NCBI GenBank assembly: GCA_027490155.1
Contig: JAIXYP010000002.1
Location: 1 to 64,000 of the forward strand
Origin: Cytophagaceae bacterium
GTDB lineage: Bacteria > Bacteroidota > Bacteroidia > Cytophagales > Flexibacteraceae
Direction of reading: 5' to 3'
DNA: 64,000 nt
A model generated the notes under the pieces. It worked only from the letters and a program-made list of their open reading frames with translations, did not search any database and was not told the origin of the DNA. Made by a program: the position numbers and the translations under genes. Below, one piece after another: positions 26,213 to 30,024 of this stretch. Within the stretch, counting starts at the first letter, position 1. Every line of letters begins with the position of its first letter.

Positions 26213-27616
26213 ATGCTTCCTCACCTTCACCTAGTTGCCAATAGCACAATAGTTGCGCTTTCGACTCCACCCGGGACCGGTGCATTGGCGATCATCAGAA
26301 TGGCGGGGCCAGATACTTATCGCATACTCGACCAAGTTTTCAGGGGTAAGCGACCGTCCGAGGCACCTGGCTATACCATATTATACGGTCACATACAGGA
26401 TCCTGCTAGCCTAGCCACTCTGGATGAGGTGCTAGTCTCTGCCTTCAGAGCCCCGCATAGTTATACTAAAGAGGATTCCGTTGAGATCAGCTGCCACGGG
26501 GCACCACTCATCGTGCGTCAGGTGATCAGCCTTTTGTGTCGCCTAGGTGCGGTCTTGGCCCAGCCTGGCGAGTTCACCCTGCGGGCCTACAAACATGGTC
26601 GGTTTGACCTCGCCCAAGCAGAAGCCGTTGCAGACCTGATCCATGCCGAAACAGAAGCCGCCCAACGTATGGCCTTCAGCCAGATGCGAGGTGGCTTCAG
26701 CAAACGACTATCTGCCCTTCGTGAGAAACTAATCCACTTTGCCTCCCTCATTGAGCTAGAGCTAGACTTTGGCGAAGAGGATGTGGAGTTTGCCAATCGG
26801 CAGGACCTAAAGGACCTTCTAGGCAGCCTGCTTGCGGACATTGGCGGATTGATTAGCTCCTTCAGCACAGGTAATGCGCTCAAAAACGGAGTGCCTGTCG
26901 TTATCGCTGGGAGGCCCAATGCTGGCAAAAGCACCTTGCTGAACGCCCTGTTACAAGAAGAGCGTGCCCTTGTGAGTGACATCCCGGGCACAACTCGTGA
27001 TACAGTCGAGGATACCATCGTCCTTGGTGGCCTTCAGTTTCGATTCATCGATACGGCAGGCCTGCGTGAGACTACTGACGTTGTGGAGGCCATGGGGGTT
27101 AGCCGTACCCGTCAGAAAATGCAGGATGCCCAAGTGATCTTGTACATGCTCGATCTCCGTACAACAGACTATGGGGCTTTGATCGCTGAGGCACAGGCTG
27201 CACTTGTCCCCCTTTTGGCTGAGGGAAAACAAGTGATCTTAGTCGGCAATAAAGTCGATGACGTCAGCTCAGCCGTCTTGGCTCTTTACCAACAGGCCTT
27301 CCCTGACTTGGTCTTGATATCGGCACTTAACAACTTGGGGCTCAATGTCTTGACGGCCAAACTAATCAGCACGGTGCAGCTACATCTCCCTTCCGAAACG
27401 GATGTAGTCGTGAGTAACCTACGACATGTGGAGGCTCTCCGCCTTGCAGAAGCAGCCCTAGAACGTGCACTAACAGGCCTCCATAACGGATTGACTGGAG
27501 ATTTCTTGGCTCTGGACATCCGCCACGGACTATATCACCTTGGCGAAATCACGGGCGAAATCACGACCGATGACCTGCTAGGTAATATCTTCTCCCGTTT
27601 CTGTATCGGAAAGTAA
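26213..27616 (+). CDS. mnmE: tRNA modification GTPase MnmE
   Basis: 467 residues. N-terminal tetrahydrofolate-binding domain (TPPGTGALAIIRMAGP), helical domain, inserted G domain with G1 GRPNAGKS (233-240), G2 GTTRD (259-263), G3 DTAG (280-283) and G4 NKVD, and the catalytic C-terminal CIGK. With MnmG it installs the carboxymethylaminomethyl group on wobble uridine of several tRNAs. The 3' end overlaps hipT on the opposite strand by 39 bases. Confidence 0.98.
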   Translation: MLPHLHLVANSTIVALSTPPGTGALAIIRMAGPDTYRILDQVFRGKRPSEAPGYTILYGHIQDPASLATLDEVLVSAFRAPHSYTKEDSVEISCHGAPLIVRQVISLLCRLGAVLAQPGEFTLRAYKHGRFDLAQAEAVADLIHAETEAAQRMAFSQMRGGFSKRLSALREKLIHFASLIELELDFGEEDVEFANRQDLKDLLGSLLADIGGLISSFSTGNALKNGVPVVIAGRPNAGKSTLLNALLQEERALVSDIPGTTRDTVEDTIVLGGLQFRFIDTAGLRETTDVVEAMGVSRTRQKMQDAQVILYMLDLRTTDYGALIAEAQAALVPLLAEGKQVILVGNKVDDVSSAVLALYQQAFPDLVLISALNNLGLNVLTAKLISTVQLHLPSETDVVVSNLRHVEALRLAEAALERALTGLHNGLTGDFLALDIRHGLYHLGEITGEITTDDLLGNIFSRFCIGK

Positions 27617-28579
27617 GGCTGGTTCGTACTGGTAGTCCAGCCCCAAAACGGCTGCTCTTTCGGCCACAATTTGGTGATAAACTTGTTTGGCCTCATCTGT
27701 CAGGAAGGAGGCGTTGATCAAGTCAGGCCAAGTCTGGAGGGCTTTATTAAAACGCTTTTGGGTATTCTCGATAACTTTGGCAGGTAGCTCAAGCACGGTG
27801 CTCCCTAGATGATCGATAAGGTCTGCCTTGGTGAGGCGATTACGTTTGCCATTAAGGGTGAGGGCGAATTGTTCCTTATCCTCTGGCATTGCTAGCTGGG
27901 TATTGATAAGATCATAAGCAGGTGATAGCCGCCAACCTTCTGCCGTTTCAAGCATCGAGAAGTTTTTGAGGTGCATGTCTGAGTTGCCCGTCAGCCAAGT
28001 AAAGAGCACCATGTAAAACAAATAGAGTTTGTCTTGGCCGGCCACAGCACTATACTTATTGATGACCTTGGCTATTTTCTCGACACTACCCCTGTACTTA
28101 TACTCCGTCAGGGTTTCTGTCAGCTGAGCCATATCTTCCATGCCGTACTTCAACCCTGTGTTGGTACGATCAAACCGAAGTGTCAAATAAGCCAACGATC
28201 CATCCACCAGATAGACTAACCCTGCCTCTGCAACCGGCAGGATCAAGGTCTTGGCTAGGCGCATGGTCAAGTGCTCATTTTCTGGTAGCTGCTTAAAAAG
28301 GACTGATTGGGGCTTCAGTATGTACTTACCACTGTAGCCGACAACTGTTAGGCGCTTGGTTTTTTCACCCTTATCCTCGCCCAAAGACAATTTTGGCTGG
28401 ACCCCAGTTACCGATCCTTTGCTACGGATGTAACGCTCAGCTATGGCATCAAGCGTTGCTACCGAAACATCAATGACGGGTGGGTGGGGCTGACCAAACA
28501 ATTTGCGCGCACATGCTGGGTGGTAATGCGATTGAGCATCTTTGGCTAGCTTGGCATAACATATCCTACATCTGTCCAT
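27578..28579 (-). CDS. hipT: HipT-like Ser/Thr kinase toxin
   Basis: 333 residues, a HipA-type kinase lacking the usual N-terminal subdomain. N-terminus has a possible metal knuckle (CRIC near 4-7, HPAC near 20-23). The regulatory loop reads GSVTGVQPK, with Ser56 and Thr58 aligning to the autophosphorylated Ser57/Ser59 of E. coli HipT and Ser150 of HipA. Kinase motifs: KYILKPQ (ATP-binding Lys), GNSDMHLKN (catalytic Asp and Asn) and SPAYDLINT (metal-binding Asp). HipA phosphorylates GltX and HipT phosphorylates TrpS; the target here is unknown. It follows the HipS-like gene by nine bases. The HipA core is split between two genes, as expected for hipBST. Confidence 0.9.
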   Translation of the reverse strand: MDRCRICYAKLAKDAQSHYHPACARKLFGQPHPPVIDVSVATLDAIAERYIRSKGSVTGVQPKLSLGEDKGEKTKRLTVVGYSGKYILKPQSVLFKQLPENEHLTMRLAKTLILPVAEAGLVYLVDGSLAYLTLRFDRTNTGLKYGMEDMAQLTETLTEYKYRGSVEKIAKVINKYSAVAGQDKLYLFYMVLFTWLTGNSDMHLKNFSMLETAEGWRLSPAYDLINTQLAMPEDKEQFALTLNGKRNRLTKADLIDHLGSTVLELPAKVIENTQKRFNKALQTWPDLINASFLTDEAKQVYHQIVAERAAVLGLDYQYEPALLSDTETGEDIT

Positions 28580-28588
28580 ATCGTCATG

Positions 28589-28918
28589 TTAGTTCGGTAC
28601 TGAACAATCTTCTACACTAACAGCACCTATACAATCAACACAAGCGACAAGTAATAAACCCATACGATCCCTAGGTTTGACCTTCCAGTTGCTCGTGGCG
28701 ACATCTAACAACCAGCCCTCAGGAATCAACCCATCAAAAAAAGAATGCAGCTGACGATCCTTGTATGGCTGCGTTCTCAAAGGCATTGTCAGGCTGATTG
28801 GTTGCGCCCCTGGTGTTTGGAGGTAGTCAGGGTTATACGAAAATAGGTAATGATCCGTCTCCTCGGTCAGCAACCCAGCCTTTTGATTTTTGAATAAGAT
28901 CCATGCCTGTCGTTTCAT
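28589..28918 (-). CDS. hipS: HipS-like protein (free HipA N-terminal subdomain)
   Basis: 109 residues matching the N-subdomain-1 of HipA: AGLLTEETDHYLFSYNPDYL, LTMPLRTQPY and SFFDGLIPEGWLLD, then a Gly-poor end (GLLLVACVDCIGAVSVED). In the HipBST family this piece is a separate protein, and in E. coli O127 HipS, not HipB, neutralises the kinase by occluding its active site. The start overlaps the hipB stop (ATGA), and hipT follows directly. It contains two nearby Cys (ACVDC) that I do not interpret. Confidence 0.88.
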   Translation of the reverse strand: MKRQAWILFKNQKAGLLTEETDHYLFSYNPDYLQTPGAQPISLTMPLRTQPYKDRQLHSFFDGLIPEGWLLDVATSNWKVKPRDRMGLLLVACVDCIGAVSVEDCSVPN

Positions 28919-29136
28919 AACCCCTCAGTTGATTGCGATGAATTGGGTGTAGGCACAAGTGAAAAGCCCAAAAAAGCCAAAAGCTGCTCTAGTTTGTTAA
29001 ACTGAACTGTGGGTTTTCCACCCTCTACCTCTCGTACAAATCGATACCCCAAACCAGACTGAAAAGCTAACTCCTCCTGAGTGAGCCTCAATGCCTTGCG
29101 TCTCGACGCAACGAATTTCCCGATAGTTGCCATCAT
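28915..29136 (-). CDS. hipB: HipB-like Xre-family DNA-binding protein
   Basis: About 73 residues. Cro/C1-type helix-turn-helix: IGKFVASRRKALRLTQEELAFQSGLGYRFVREVEGGKPTVQFNKL in three helices (scaffold LTQEELA..SGL, recognition YRFVREVE), then a hydrophobic C-terminal helix. Two tandem ATG codons (29136, 29133) fit the family start; an ATG at 29172 would add twelve residues. It is first in the hipB-hipS-hipT order. It probably represses its own operon through the palindromic sites upstream. Confidence 0.87.
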   Translation of the reverse strand: MMATIGKFVASRRKALRLTQEELAFQSGLGYRFVREVEGGKPTVQFNKLEQLLAFLGFSLVPTPNSSQSTEGL

Positions 29137-29170: not shown

Positions 29171-29433
29171 ATCCTTATCGGGTACAAATATAGGCAAATT
29201 TCCGAAATCATACCTGATCGGGTACAAAAATCAACTAATAGCAGTAAAAGTGTACCCGAACGGGTATAGAAAGAGTCGTAAATTTTACCGCATTTCCAGC
29301 AAATCCAACTCAAATACCAAAGCCCAGCTAATATCTAGGTTATTTTTACCGCAATTGCGGTAAAAATAAAGCTAATCGTACCCGATCGGGGCGAAAATGT
29401 CATATAAGAGTTAAAATCATACCCGATCGGGTA
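29171..29433. promoter_or_regulatory. Operator array upstream of hipBST
   Basis: Five copies of a 14-bp palindrome with consensus TACCCGATCGGGTA: 29171-29184 (degenerate left half), 29211-29224, 29253-29266, 29379-29392 (degenerate right half) and 29420-29433 (perfect). Centre distances are 40, 42, 126 and 41 bases, close to multiples of four helical turns. A -7 box TATATTTG lies on the minus strand at 29185-29192, directly next to the first copy, while the second covers the region where -33 would be. HipB binding is inferred. Confidence 0.8.
29341..29368. repeat. 28-bp perfect palindrome in the hipBST upstream region
   Basis: Left arm TATTTTTACCGCAA (29341-29354), right arm TTGCGGTAAAAATA (29355-29368), no loop. 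A matching half-site TTTTACCGCA occurs at 29283-29292. The sequence differs from the TACCCGATCGGGTA sites, so it may bind another regulator; as RNA it could also form a hairpin. Confidence 0.75.
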
Positions 29434-29463: not shown

Positions 29464-30024
29464 CTACAATAAACCTAGCACCTTACAGGCCTTCATGATG
29501 CCAACGATGCTGAGGCTATCCGTGATCTGGTTGTCAAGGACAAGGGTTAGCGCCTCCCGTAGGTGGATCTTCTTGATCTTGAGATCCTCAGTTTCTTCAA
29601 ACTCCGTGGGTCCCTGCGTAAGCCCTTGAGCTAAATACAGATGCCCCTCCTCATTACAGACAGAGTTGCTGGTATGGATGCGGCTAAGGTAGGTCCAACG
29701 TTCGGCTAGCAAGCCTGTTTCTTCACGTAGCTCTCGTTGGGCACTTTTGAGCGGGTCAATGCCGATTGGGCCACCACCTTCAGGGATTTCCCAAGTGTAC
29801 TCGTTAAGTGGATATCGGTACTGCCCTACTAGCCAAGTGTATCCCTCCTCATCAACGGGAACGATCCCGATAGCCAAGTTCTTGAAGTGAACAACTCCAT
29901 AGATGCCAGGTTTACCACTTGGGTTGATGACTTGGTTTTCCTCGACCGTAATCCAGGGATTAGCATACTTGAGGTCGGTACGTTTTGTCAGCCACGGATT
30001 GGAATACTGCTCTAGCTTAGCCAT
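29464..30024 (-). CDS. Nudix hydrolase, ADP-ribose pyrophosphatase-like
   Basis: 186 residues with the Nudix box region EGGGPIGIDPLKSAQRELRE then ETGLLA. The REL-x-EE-x-G core that binds metal is present, but the Glu expected seven residues before it is Ile (GID). N-terminal strands (NPWITVEENQVI, GIYGVVHFKNLAIGIV) fit the ADP-sugar pyrophosphatase group. Likely hydrolyses a nucleoside diphosphate sugar such as ADP-ribose. It lies upstream of the hipBST operators in the same direction; no terminator was recognised between them. Confidence 0.86.
   Translation of the reverse strand: MAKLEQYSNPWLTKRTDLKYANPWITVEENQVINPSGKPGIYGVVHFKNLAIGIVPVDEEGYTWLVGQYRYPLNEYTWEIPEGGGPIGIDPLKSAQRELREETGLLAERWTYLSRIHTSNSVCNEEGHLYLAQGLTQGPTEFEETEDLKIKKIHLREALTLVLDNQITDSLSIVGIMKACKVLGLL

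Follow-up and report, generated by a model that had tools for sequence, protein, structure and literature searches.

Five short palindromic sites upstream of the hipB-hipS-hipT operon of a Cytophagaceae bacterium are very probably auto-repressor sites of HipB, set out along a spacing ruler that is conserved in relatives. The locus lies in a 64,000-nucleotide stretch of DNA, referred to here as the window. From the comparison of related loci, binding of HipB at the sites is strongly inferred and autorepression is inferred; cooperativity between the sites is plausible and looping by the two distal sites is speculative. In the reading that is considered likely here, all five sites are HipB operators, evenly spaced complexes jointly repress hipBST, and the distal pair extends the array or forms a loop.

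The hipB-hipS-hipT Operon and Its Relatives

The three genes lie on the minus strand. They are predicted to encode an XRE-type helix-turn-helix repressor (hipB, 28915..29136, with its ATG at 29136 or 29133), a protein resembling the N-terminal part of HipA (hipS, 28589..28918) and a HipA C-terminal-like kinase (hipT, 27578..28579). In characterised HipBST systems, HipS is the antitoxin and HipT the toxin. HipS matches Couple_hipA (E 2.6e-27) and HipA N-subdomain 1, which HipT lacks; HipT matches HipA_C (E 2.5e-45), and its profile begins at about residue 1 of solved HipT chains but only at about residue 140 of E. coli HipA. The best PDB sequence matches of both proteins are their Legionella counterparts, HipS(Lp) 7vkb/8ezr at E 1.6e-14 and HipT(Lp) 8ezr at E 7.1e-80 (profile A1), and HipT resembles its E. 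coli counterpart less closely (7ab3, E 2.1e-33, same profile). Residue S56 of HipT, in GSVTGVQ by the Gly-rich loop, may be equivalent to Ser150 of HipA; in other rows of the A1 profile the corresponding residue is A or T. By gene order and homology, the operon is thus assigned to the Legionella-like branch of HipBST systems.

The AlphaFold model of HipB (pLDDT 89.6, 49 alignment rows) has a helix at residues 30-37 (72-residue form) within a helix-turn-helix, and this helix is taken as the recognition helix. The top structural match of the model is Legionella HipB 8ezt (Z 10.8, rmsd 2.7, 67 aligned residues), tied with Shewanella HipB 4pu7 (Z 10.2), and further matches are other HipB structures, HipB-operator complexes among them. 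By sequence, Legionella HipB is a weak second match (E 4.2e-4) after DBP48.

At its 3' end, hipT is convergent with mnmE (trmE; 26213-27616), and the two genes overlap by 39 bases (27578-27616). The hipBST genes lie near mnmE in the window and in seven of the 78 other loci longer than 4 kb, from several lineages (the sister species locus L023 as well as L027, L038, L072, L095, L100 and L106). The end of mnmE is a known integration hotspot. HipT (27581-28579) also weakly matches the candidate anti-phage defence models PDC-M03A of PADLOC, with a best E of 1.1e-9.

The comparison drew on 155 loci with HipT relatives, of which 80 are named loci, the best 80 of at least 576 confirmed relatives, and the rest are the window and genomes of its order. 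The order sample, in which 117 of 390 genomes have a match at E ≤ 1e-40, supplied 29 loci (L108-L136) and 40 further places with E values from 7e-123 to 1e-104, in three of which the hipT match is interrupted by a stop codon. The window has the gene order hipB-hipS-hipT, and hipB and hipS occur together in 152 of the 155 loci. The other three (L039, L067 and L070), whose matches lie near contig ends and lack a detectable hipB and hipS pair, were dropped. A further nine of the 152 were redundant or had less than 200 bp of upstream sequence and were left out, giving 143 non-redundant loci with the window included; locus L013 (G002) is outside this set. As the sample consists of strong HipT matches, the counts below describe close HipT relatives rather than all hipBST loci.

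The Five-Site Array in the Window

The array lies upstream of hipB, between it and a nudix gene that ends at 29464. A repeat search that used no motif recovered the five sites described in the initial annotation, with centres 40, 42, 126 and 41 bp apart, as are their starts. O5 (29420..29433, centre 29426.5) is a perfect TACCCGATCGGGTA. O2 (TACCTGATCGGGTA, 29211..29224, centre 29217.5) and O3 (TACCCGAACGGGTA, 29253..29266, centre 29259.5) each differ from it at one position, and O4 (TACCCGATCGGGGC, 29379..29392, centre 29385.5), 126 bp from O3, differs at two. The promoter-proximal O1 (29171..29184, centre 29177.5; core ATCCTTATCGGGTA on the plus strand) has four mismatches and is asymmetric, with one arm degraded. 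The description of the sites as near-identical therefore suits O2, O3 and O5, suits O4 less well and fails for O1, so that the operator at the promoter is the weakest of the five. Measured upstream from O1, the distances to O4 and O5 are 208 and 249 bp, in agreement with the placement of two sites more than 200 bases upstream.

Allowing up to three mismatches to TACCCGATCGGGTA, the window holds seven matches, four of them in the array (O1 excluded), where 1.46 are expected from shuffles; none of 100 shuffles reached seven, the maximum being six. The genome-wide motif search, which had been proposed as a check, found places with zero or one mismatch at three array sites only in the whole 3.99-Mb genome. 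At three mismatches, the genome total of 156 places is below the 304 of a reversed-pattern control, and a genome-wide element was accordingly rejected.

The Distal Pair

An in-phase distal pair within 500 bp upstream of hipB is found at three of the 143 loci, namely the window, its sister species G001 and G009, and thus two of the three are sister species. The gaps that separate the distal from the proximal sites are 126 bp in the window, 124 bp in G001 and 168 bp in G009. On the HipS tree, G009 is not placed beside the window's group, and the arrangement may have arisen twice, three loci being too small a number for a claim.

It is a serious, if less probable, alternative that O4 and O5 do not act on the hipB promoter and instead mark a second or former promoter or control read-through from the nudix gene. 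By eye, G009 has a -7-like box, TATCTTTG, 28-35 bp downstream of its inner distal site, followed by a terminator-like hairpin. Against this, an exact TAnnTTTG box is absent beside O4 and O5 in the 3.2-kb stretch of the window that was scanned, and the gaps of 126 and 168 bp are whole numbers of 10.5-bp turns; the 124 bp of G001 is 11.8 turns.

Operator Spacing and the Promoter

The spacing was measured in two ways. In the first, which used no motif, 16-bp windows within 300 bp upstream of hipB were compared, and repeats were found at a lag of 40 in 64, of 41 in 85 and of 42 in 20 of the 143 loci, with echoes at lags of 80-83. Dinucleotide shuffles gave about two loci per lag among the 143, and the controls at lags 39-43 gave 0-2 of 143 in hipS/T coding sequence and 1-5 of 130 in far-upstream stretches. 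A repeat at any lag from 39 to 43 is present in 125 of 143 loci and absent from 18. In the second, sites were sought to 500 bp upstream of hipB with position weight matrices (PWMs) for four operator classes, which were seeded with words picked by eye and made no use of spacing. Two or more operators 39-42 bp apart were called at 141 of 143 loci and three or more in a row at 122, leaving 21 without such a triplet. Between -160 and -8, 278 of 289 adjacent pairs are 39-42 bp apart, compared with a mean of 16.8 and a maximum of 29 in 500 runs of random placement. Even a crude search for TACCN6GGTA with one mismatch found a 39-42 bp pair in 84 of 98 R-type loci, the largest of the operator classes described below.

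Counting pairs of 36-46 bp, the mean spacing is 40.6 bp (sd 0.6), with 40.60 (sd 0.65; 139 of 143 loci) for O1-O2, 40.64 (sd 0.61; 124 of 129) for O2-O3 and 40.67 (sd 0.47; 15 of 23) for O3-O4. The distance from O1 to the ATG is much looser (sd 9.1). T-type loci have a spacing of almost exactly 40 bp, and C- and N-type loci of almost exactly 41 bp. The proposal that the sites share one face of the DNA is well supported by the comparison as roughly the same face; at 10.5 bp per turn, 40.6 bp is 3.87 turns, so that the phasing is approximate. Judged by these relatives, the O1-O3 triplet is ordinary for the hipBST subfamily. The initial annotation had called the layout more elaborate than typical hip operators, which does not hold for a triplet at 40-41 bp, the subfamily norm, but does for the in-phase distal pair, which is unusual. 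Such operators are also carried by relatives labelled Chlorobium, Kapaibacterium, Methanimicrococcus (an archaeon) and Bdellovibrionales (L073, L081, L088 and L107). The row is regular in L073 and L107, with spacings of 41 and 53 in L081 and of 61, 61 and 31 in L088; horizontal transfer or mis-binned contigs are possible at these four loci.

A -7 box, TATATTTG (29185..29192, minus strand), directly abuts O1 and is conserved at 8 of 8 positions in the sister species. Its consensus, TAnnTTTG, is taken here to be the Bacteroidota-type -7 box, promoters of Bacteroidota being of another type than the sigma-70-type. By itself the box is insignificant (4 matches in 3.2 kb, equalled in 36 of 200 shuffles); the sole exact minus-strand TAnnTTTG in this 3.2-kb stretch is the one at O1. 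Across relatives, it is placed identically before O1, exactly in 65 of 143 loci and with one mismatch allowed in 102, compared with an exact box at the equivalent place in 3 of 143 loci for O2 and 3 of 129 for O3. In the window, O2 starts 18 bases beyond the box. Two sites had been said to flank and cover the box; it does lie between O1 and O2, but it is touched by the 18-bp extended operator of O1 rather than covered by two sites.

These observations bear on a somewhat unlikely alternative, in which HipB binds each operator independently, the array tunes the strength of repression, and the spacing is fixed because O1 sits on the start site and O2 on a -33 element. The end of the -7 box falls exactly 7 bp ahead of the O1 centre in the 65 loci with an exact box. 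In addition, gel shifts with Legionella HipB were read, in the passages of that study on DNA binding, as possible intermediate occupancy, unlike the case of E. coli HipB, and this reading counts against cooperativity (PMC10653801). However, the O2-O3 and O3-O4 distances, which fall beyond the core promoter, are as tight as O1-O2, such that promoter geometry alone is insufficient to explain the ruler. A second hipBST subfamily points the same way. It consists of 20 loci (L180-L199) from the same order, taken from weaker HipT matches, with the gene order hipB-hipS-hipT and paired inverted-repeat-like sites upstream. With 14-bp windows and thus slightly laxer settings, repeats fall at lags of 60, 61 and 62 in 5, 9 and 5 of the 20 loci and at lags 39-43 in 0-3. 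Gene order and paired sites are alike in the two subfamilies, whereas the spacing is about 61 bp in one and about 41 bp in the other, suggesting that 41 bp is not dictated by promoter geometry alone.

HipB as the Probable Owner of the Sites

Residue 31 of the putative recognition helix divides the loci into classes, with R in 98, T in 23, C in 16 and N in 6. The 'RF' class pools the helices other than ALTV, GLCF or GLNF (GLRF, GYRF, GLRL, GIRF and GVRF). The operators vary in parallel: position -5 of the half-site is C in 94% of R-type operators and T in 96, 88 and 86% of T-, C- and N-type operators, and the outer TATA is common to all classes. In a leave-one-out assignment, operator class equals HipB class at 139 of 143 loci (97 of 98 R, 23 of 23 T, 16 of 16 C and 3 of 6 N). 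The best HipS tree needs six class changes, the minimum possible being three, a rough count given the few columns and many weak forks of this tree. Since operator class follows the recognition helix, HipB is the likely owner of the sites. Orthologous loci lacking both motif and spacing had been named beforehand as an outcome that would refute the proposal; the comparison found instead that the spacing varies by only about 1 bp among relatives and that the motif changes in step with HipB.

Ownership by a regulator other than HipB is very improbable. A second, unrelated palindrome in the same region would be in keeping with another regulator, but the match between operator class and HipB helix, and the confinement of the closest genomic matches to the region upstream of hipB, argue against one that owns the five sites. 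This second palindrome, left out of the initial annotation, is a perfect 30-bp palindrome between O3 and O4 (29340..29369, core TACCGCAATTGCGGTA), with a half-copy, TTTTACCGCA, at 29283..29292 on the plus strand that is conserved at 8 of 10 positions in the sister species. It was considered as a HipB operator and rejected, as the class PWMs do not call it. A motif within it, TACCGCAWWTGCGGTA, occurs exactly at two places in the genome, between O3 and O4 and between amidohydrolase-like and glycoside hydrolase-like genes, where the amidohydrolase-like gene lies beside a transporter-like gene (gene names assigned by eye). In the sister species, the copy beyond hipBST is exact and the O3-O4 copy has one mismatch, and positions of the second-palindrome motif include about 1501-1516 in both L178 and L200. 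The second palindrome may belong to a sugar regulator.

An RNA element was also considered for this region and rejected. The stretch 29270-29375 folds better than shuffles (z -4.83 on the minus strand and -3.29 on the plus strand), and the perfect DNA palindrome within it would by itself cause this folding excess. Rfam gave only two chance-level matches (E 0.2 and 0.39), neither of which came near its gathering score.

Conservation in the Sister Species

G001, the one further genome from this genus included in the search, keeps all five sites at spacings of 40, 42, 124 and 41 bp. The operator cores are identical at 67 of 70 positions (13 of 14 in O1, 12 of 14 in O4 and 14 of 14 in each of O2, O3 and O5), and the hipB coding sequence at 201 of 216. 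Over the 5'UTR together with the O1-O2, O2-O3, O3 to half-site and O4-O5 spacers, identity falls to 73 of 126 positions, or 46-68% in each part. This pattern of kept operators and mostly drifting spacers suggests selection on the sites, with the distances preserved. Of the other parts, the second palindrome is identical at 22 of 30 positions, nine bases beside O4 at 8 and the stretch from O5 to the nudix gene at 21 of 30. The block on the O3 side of the second palindrome (29293-29339) is identical at 36 of 47, above most spacers; inspection of its six frames by eye in the window and G001 showed no shared ORF.

The least probable alternative, a recent tandem duplication with spacing conserved by descent only, could draw on the five copies of a 26-nt unit that the repeat search found in this single intergenic region, but it is largely refuted by the divergence of the O2-O3 (13 of 28) and O4-O5 (15 of 27) spacers around kept operators, by a likeness between copies that reaches only a few bases beyond the operator, and by the presence of the row in four operator classes with the repeated class changes on the weakly forked HipS tree.

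Comparison With Known Hip Systems

Evenly spaced operator triplets are already known in Legionella-like HipBST systems. The operator passages of the Legionella pneumophila study describe three evenly spaced HipB operators, with O1 over the predicted promoter, a layout found genus-wide in 28 species (PMC10653801). According to the same passages, HipB binds each of the three, with shifts consistent with HipT and HipS joining on the DNA (PMC10653801). The window shares with Legionella the evenly spaced triplet upstream of hipB and the position of O1 at the promoter. It differs in its motif, in its distal in-phase pair, where these passages describe no further upstream sites, and in its spacing of 40-42 bp centre to centre, compared with gaps of 53 bp between Legionella operators (PMC10653801). 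If the 53-bp gap is counted edge to edge, the Legionella operators would lie 71 bp apart centre to centre. That study also reports that HipBST_Lp homologues are widespread in the Fibrobacterota-Chlorobiota-Bacteroidota superphylum and that the Legionella operator motifs are absent upstream of E. coli hipBST (PMC10653801).

In the portions of the E. coli K-12 hipBA study that concern operators, four sites of the form TATCCN8GGATA are described, and O1 and O2 are reported to be cooperative (PMC3376134). Their centres are 28 bp apart, as counted from the published oligonucleotide (PMC3376134), suggesting that whole-turn phasing is not a general rule of hip operators. Multiple palindromic HipB operators are common to hipBA and the window, and autorepression, reported for hipBA, is predicted for the window; hipBA differs as a two-gene system with TATCCN8GGATA instead of TACCN6GGTA-like sites and with its 28-bp O1-O2 spacing. 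The hipBST operon of E. coli O127 has the gene order of the window, and its HipT is distantly related, as noted above. Its HipB represses the hipBST promoter, for which leaky HipBST or HipBT suffices and HipB alone needs high expression, according to the promoter passages of that study (PMC10627512).

Where the Legionella paper mentions Bacteroidota, no Bacteroidota operators were found, its operator passages concerning Legionella species (PMC10653801), and Bacteroidota are unmentioned in the main text of PMC8262856. A literature search, with subscription papers mostly outside its reach, found no report of HipB operator spacing in Bacteroidota, which does not prove such spacing unpublished. 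To the known triplets, the sequence comparison adds a ruler of 40-42 bp that is conserved among Bacteroidota relatives, the covariation of operators with HipB and the distal pair.

Proposed Mechanism of Repression

In the favoured reading, O1-O3 would form the standard promoter array of the subfamily. O1, just downstream of the -7 box, presumably lies over the transcription start; O2 would cover the -33 region, about four helical turns upstream of O1, and O3 would follow four turns beyond. Spaced about 41 bp apart and on roughly one face of the helix, HipB dimers, probably as part of HipB-HipS-HipT complexes, would silence hipBST jointly. The 40-42 bp spacing would then be a geometric ruler, determined by the contact between adjacent complexes or by the bend that they give the DNA, and with such a fixed ruler the filling of the sites, and with it repression, should hinge on several operators at once. 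At a distance of 41 bp, the footprints of two HipB dimers are about 20 bp apart; the dimers are thus unlikely to touch directly, and a bridge would have to come from HipS/HipT or from bending of the DNA. The distal pair, with the same internal spacing and about 12 turns (126 bp) upstream, most likely extends the array or loops to the proximal complexes. Cooperative binding, looping and wrapping of the DNA, as suggested in the initial annotation, are hypotheses at this stage. The regular row suggests a repressor, perhaps with its toxin, that assembles like beads on a molecular ruler.

A bolder version, offered tentatively and held to be doubtful, is that HipB2-HipS2-HipT2 complexes tile the DNA through a contact made by the toxin every 41 bp or so, making the toxin a cooperative co-repressor, with a ruler specific to each subfamily and a loop closed by the distal sites. 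For the present subfamily the ruler would measure about 41 bp, for the second one in Bacteroidota about 61 bp and for Legionella possibly 71 bp, all near whole turns of about 10.15 bp. If this were true, the in-phase distal pair of this genus would close a repression loop, creating a switch that counts toxin and antitoxin.

How HipB, HipS and HipT assemble on DNA, and whether the toxin takes part in repressing its own operon, are questions on HipBST systems for which the Legionella study calls for further work (PMC10653801). A spacing that stays constant to about 1 bp across the phylum, while the letters of the operators follow HipB, would offer a clean and cheap test of repression. The ruler also predicts HipB operators for uncharacterised hipBST loci of Bacteroidota.
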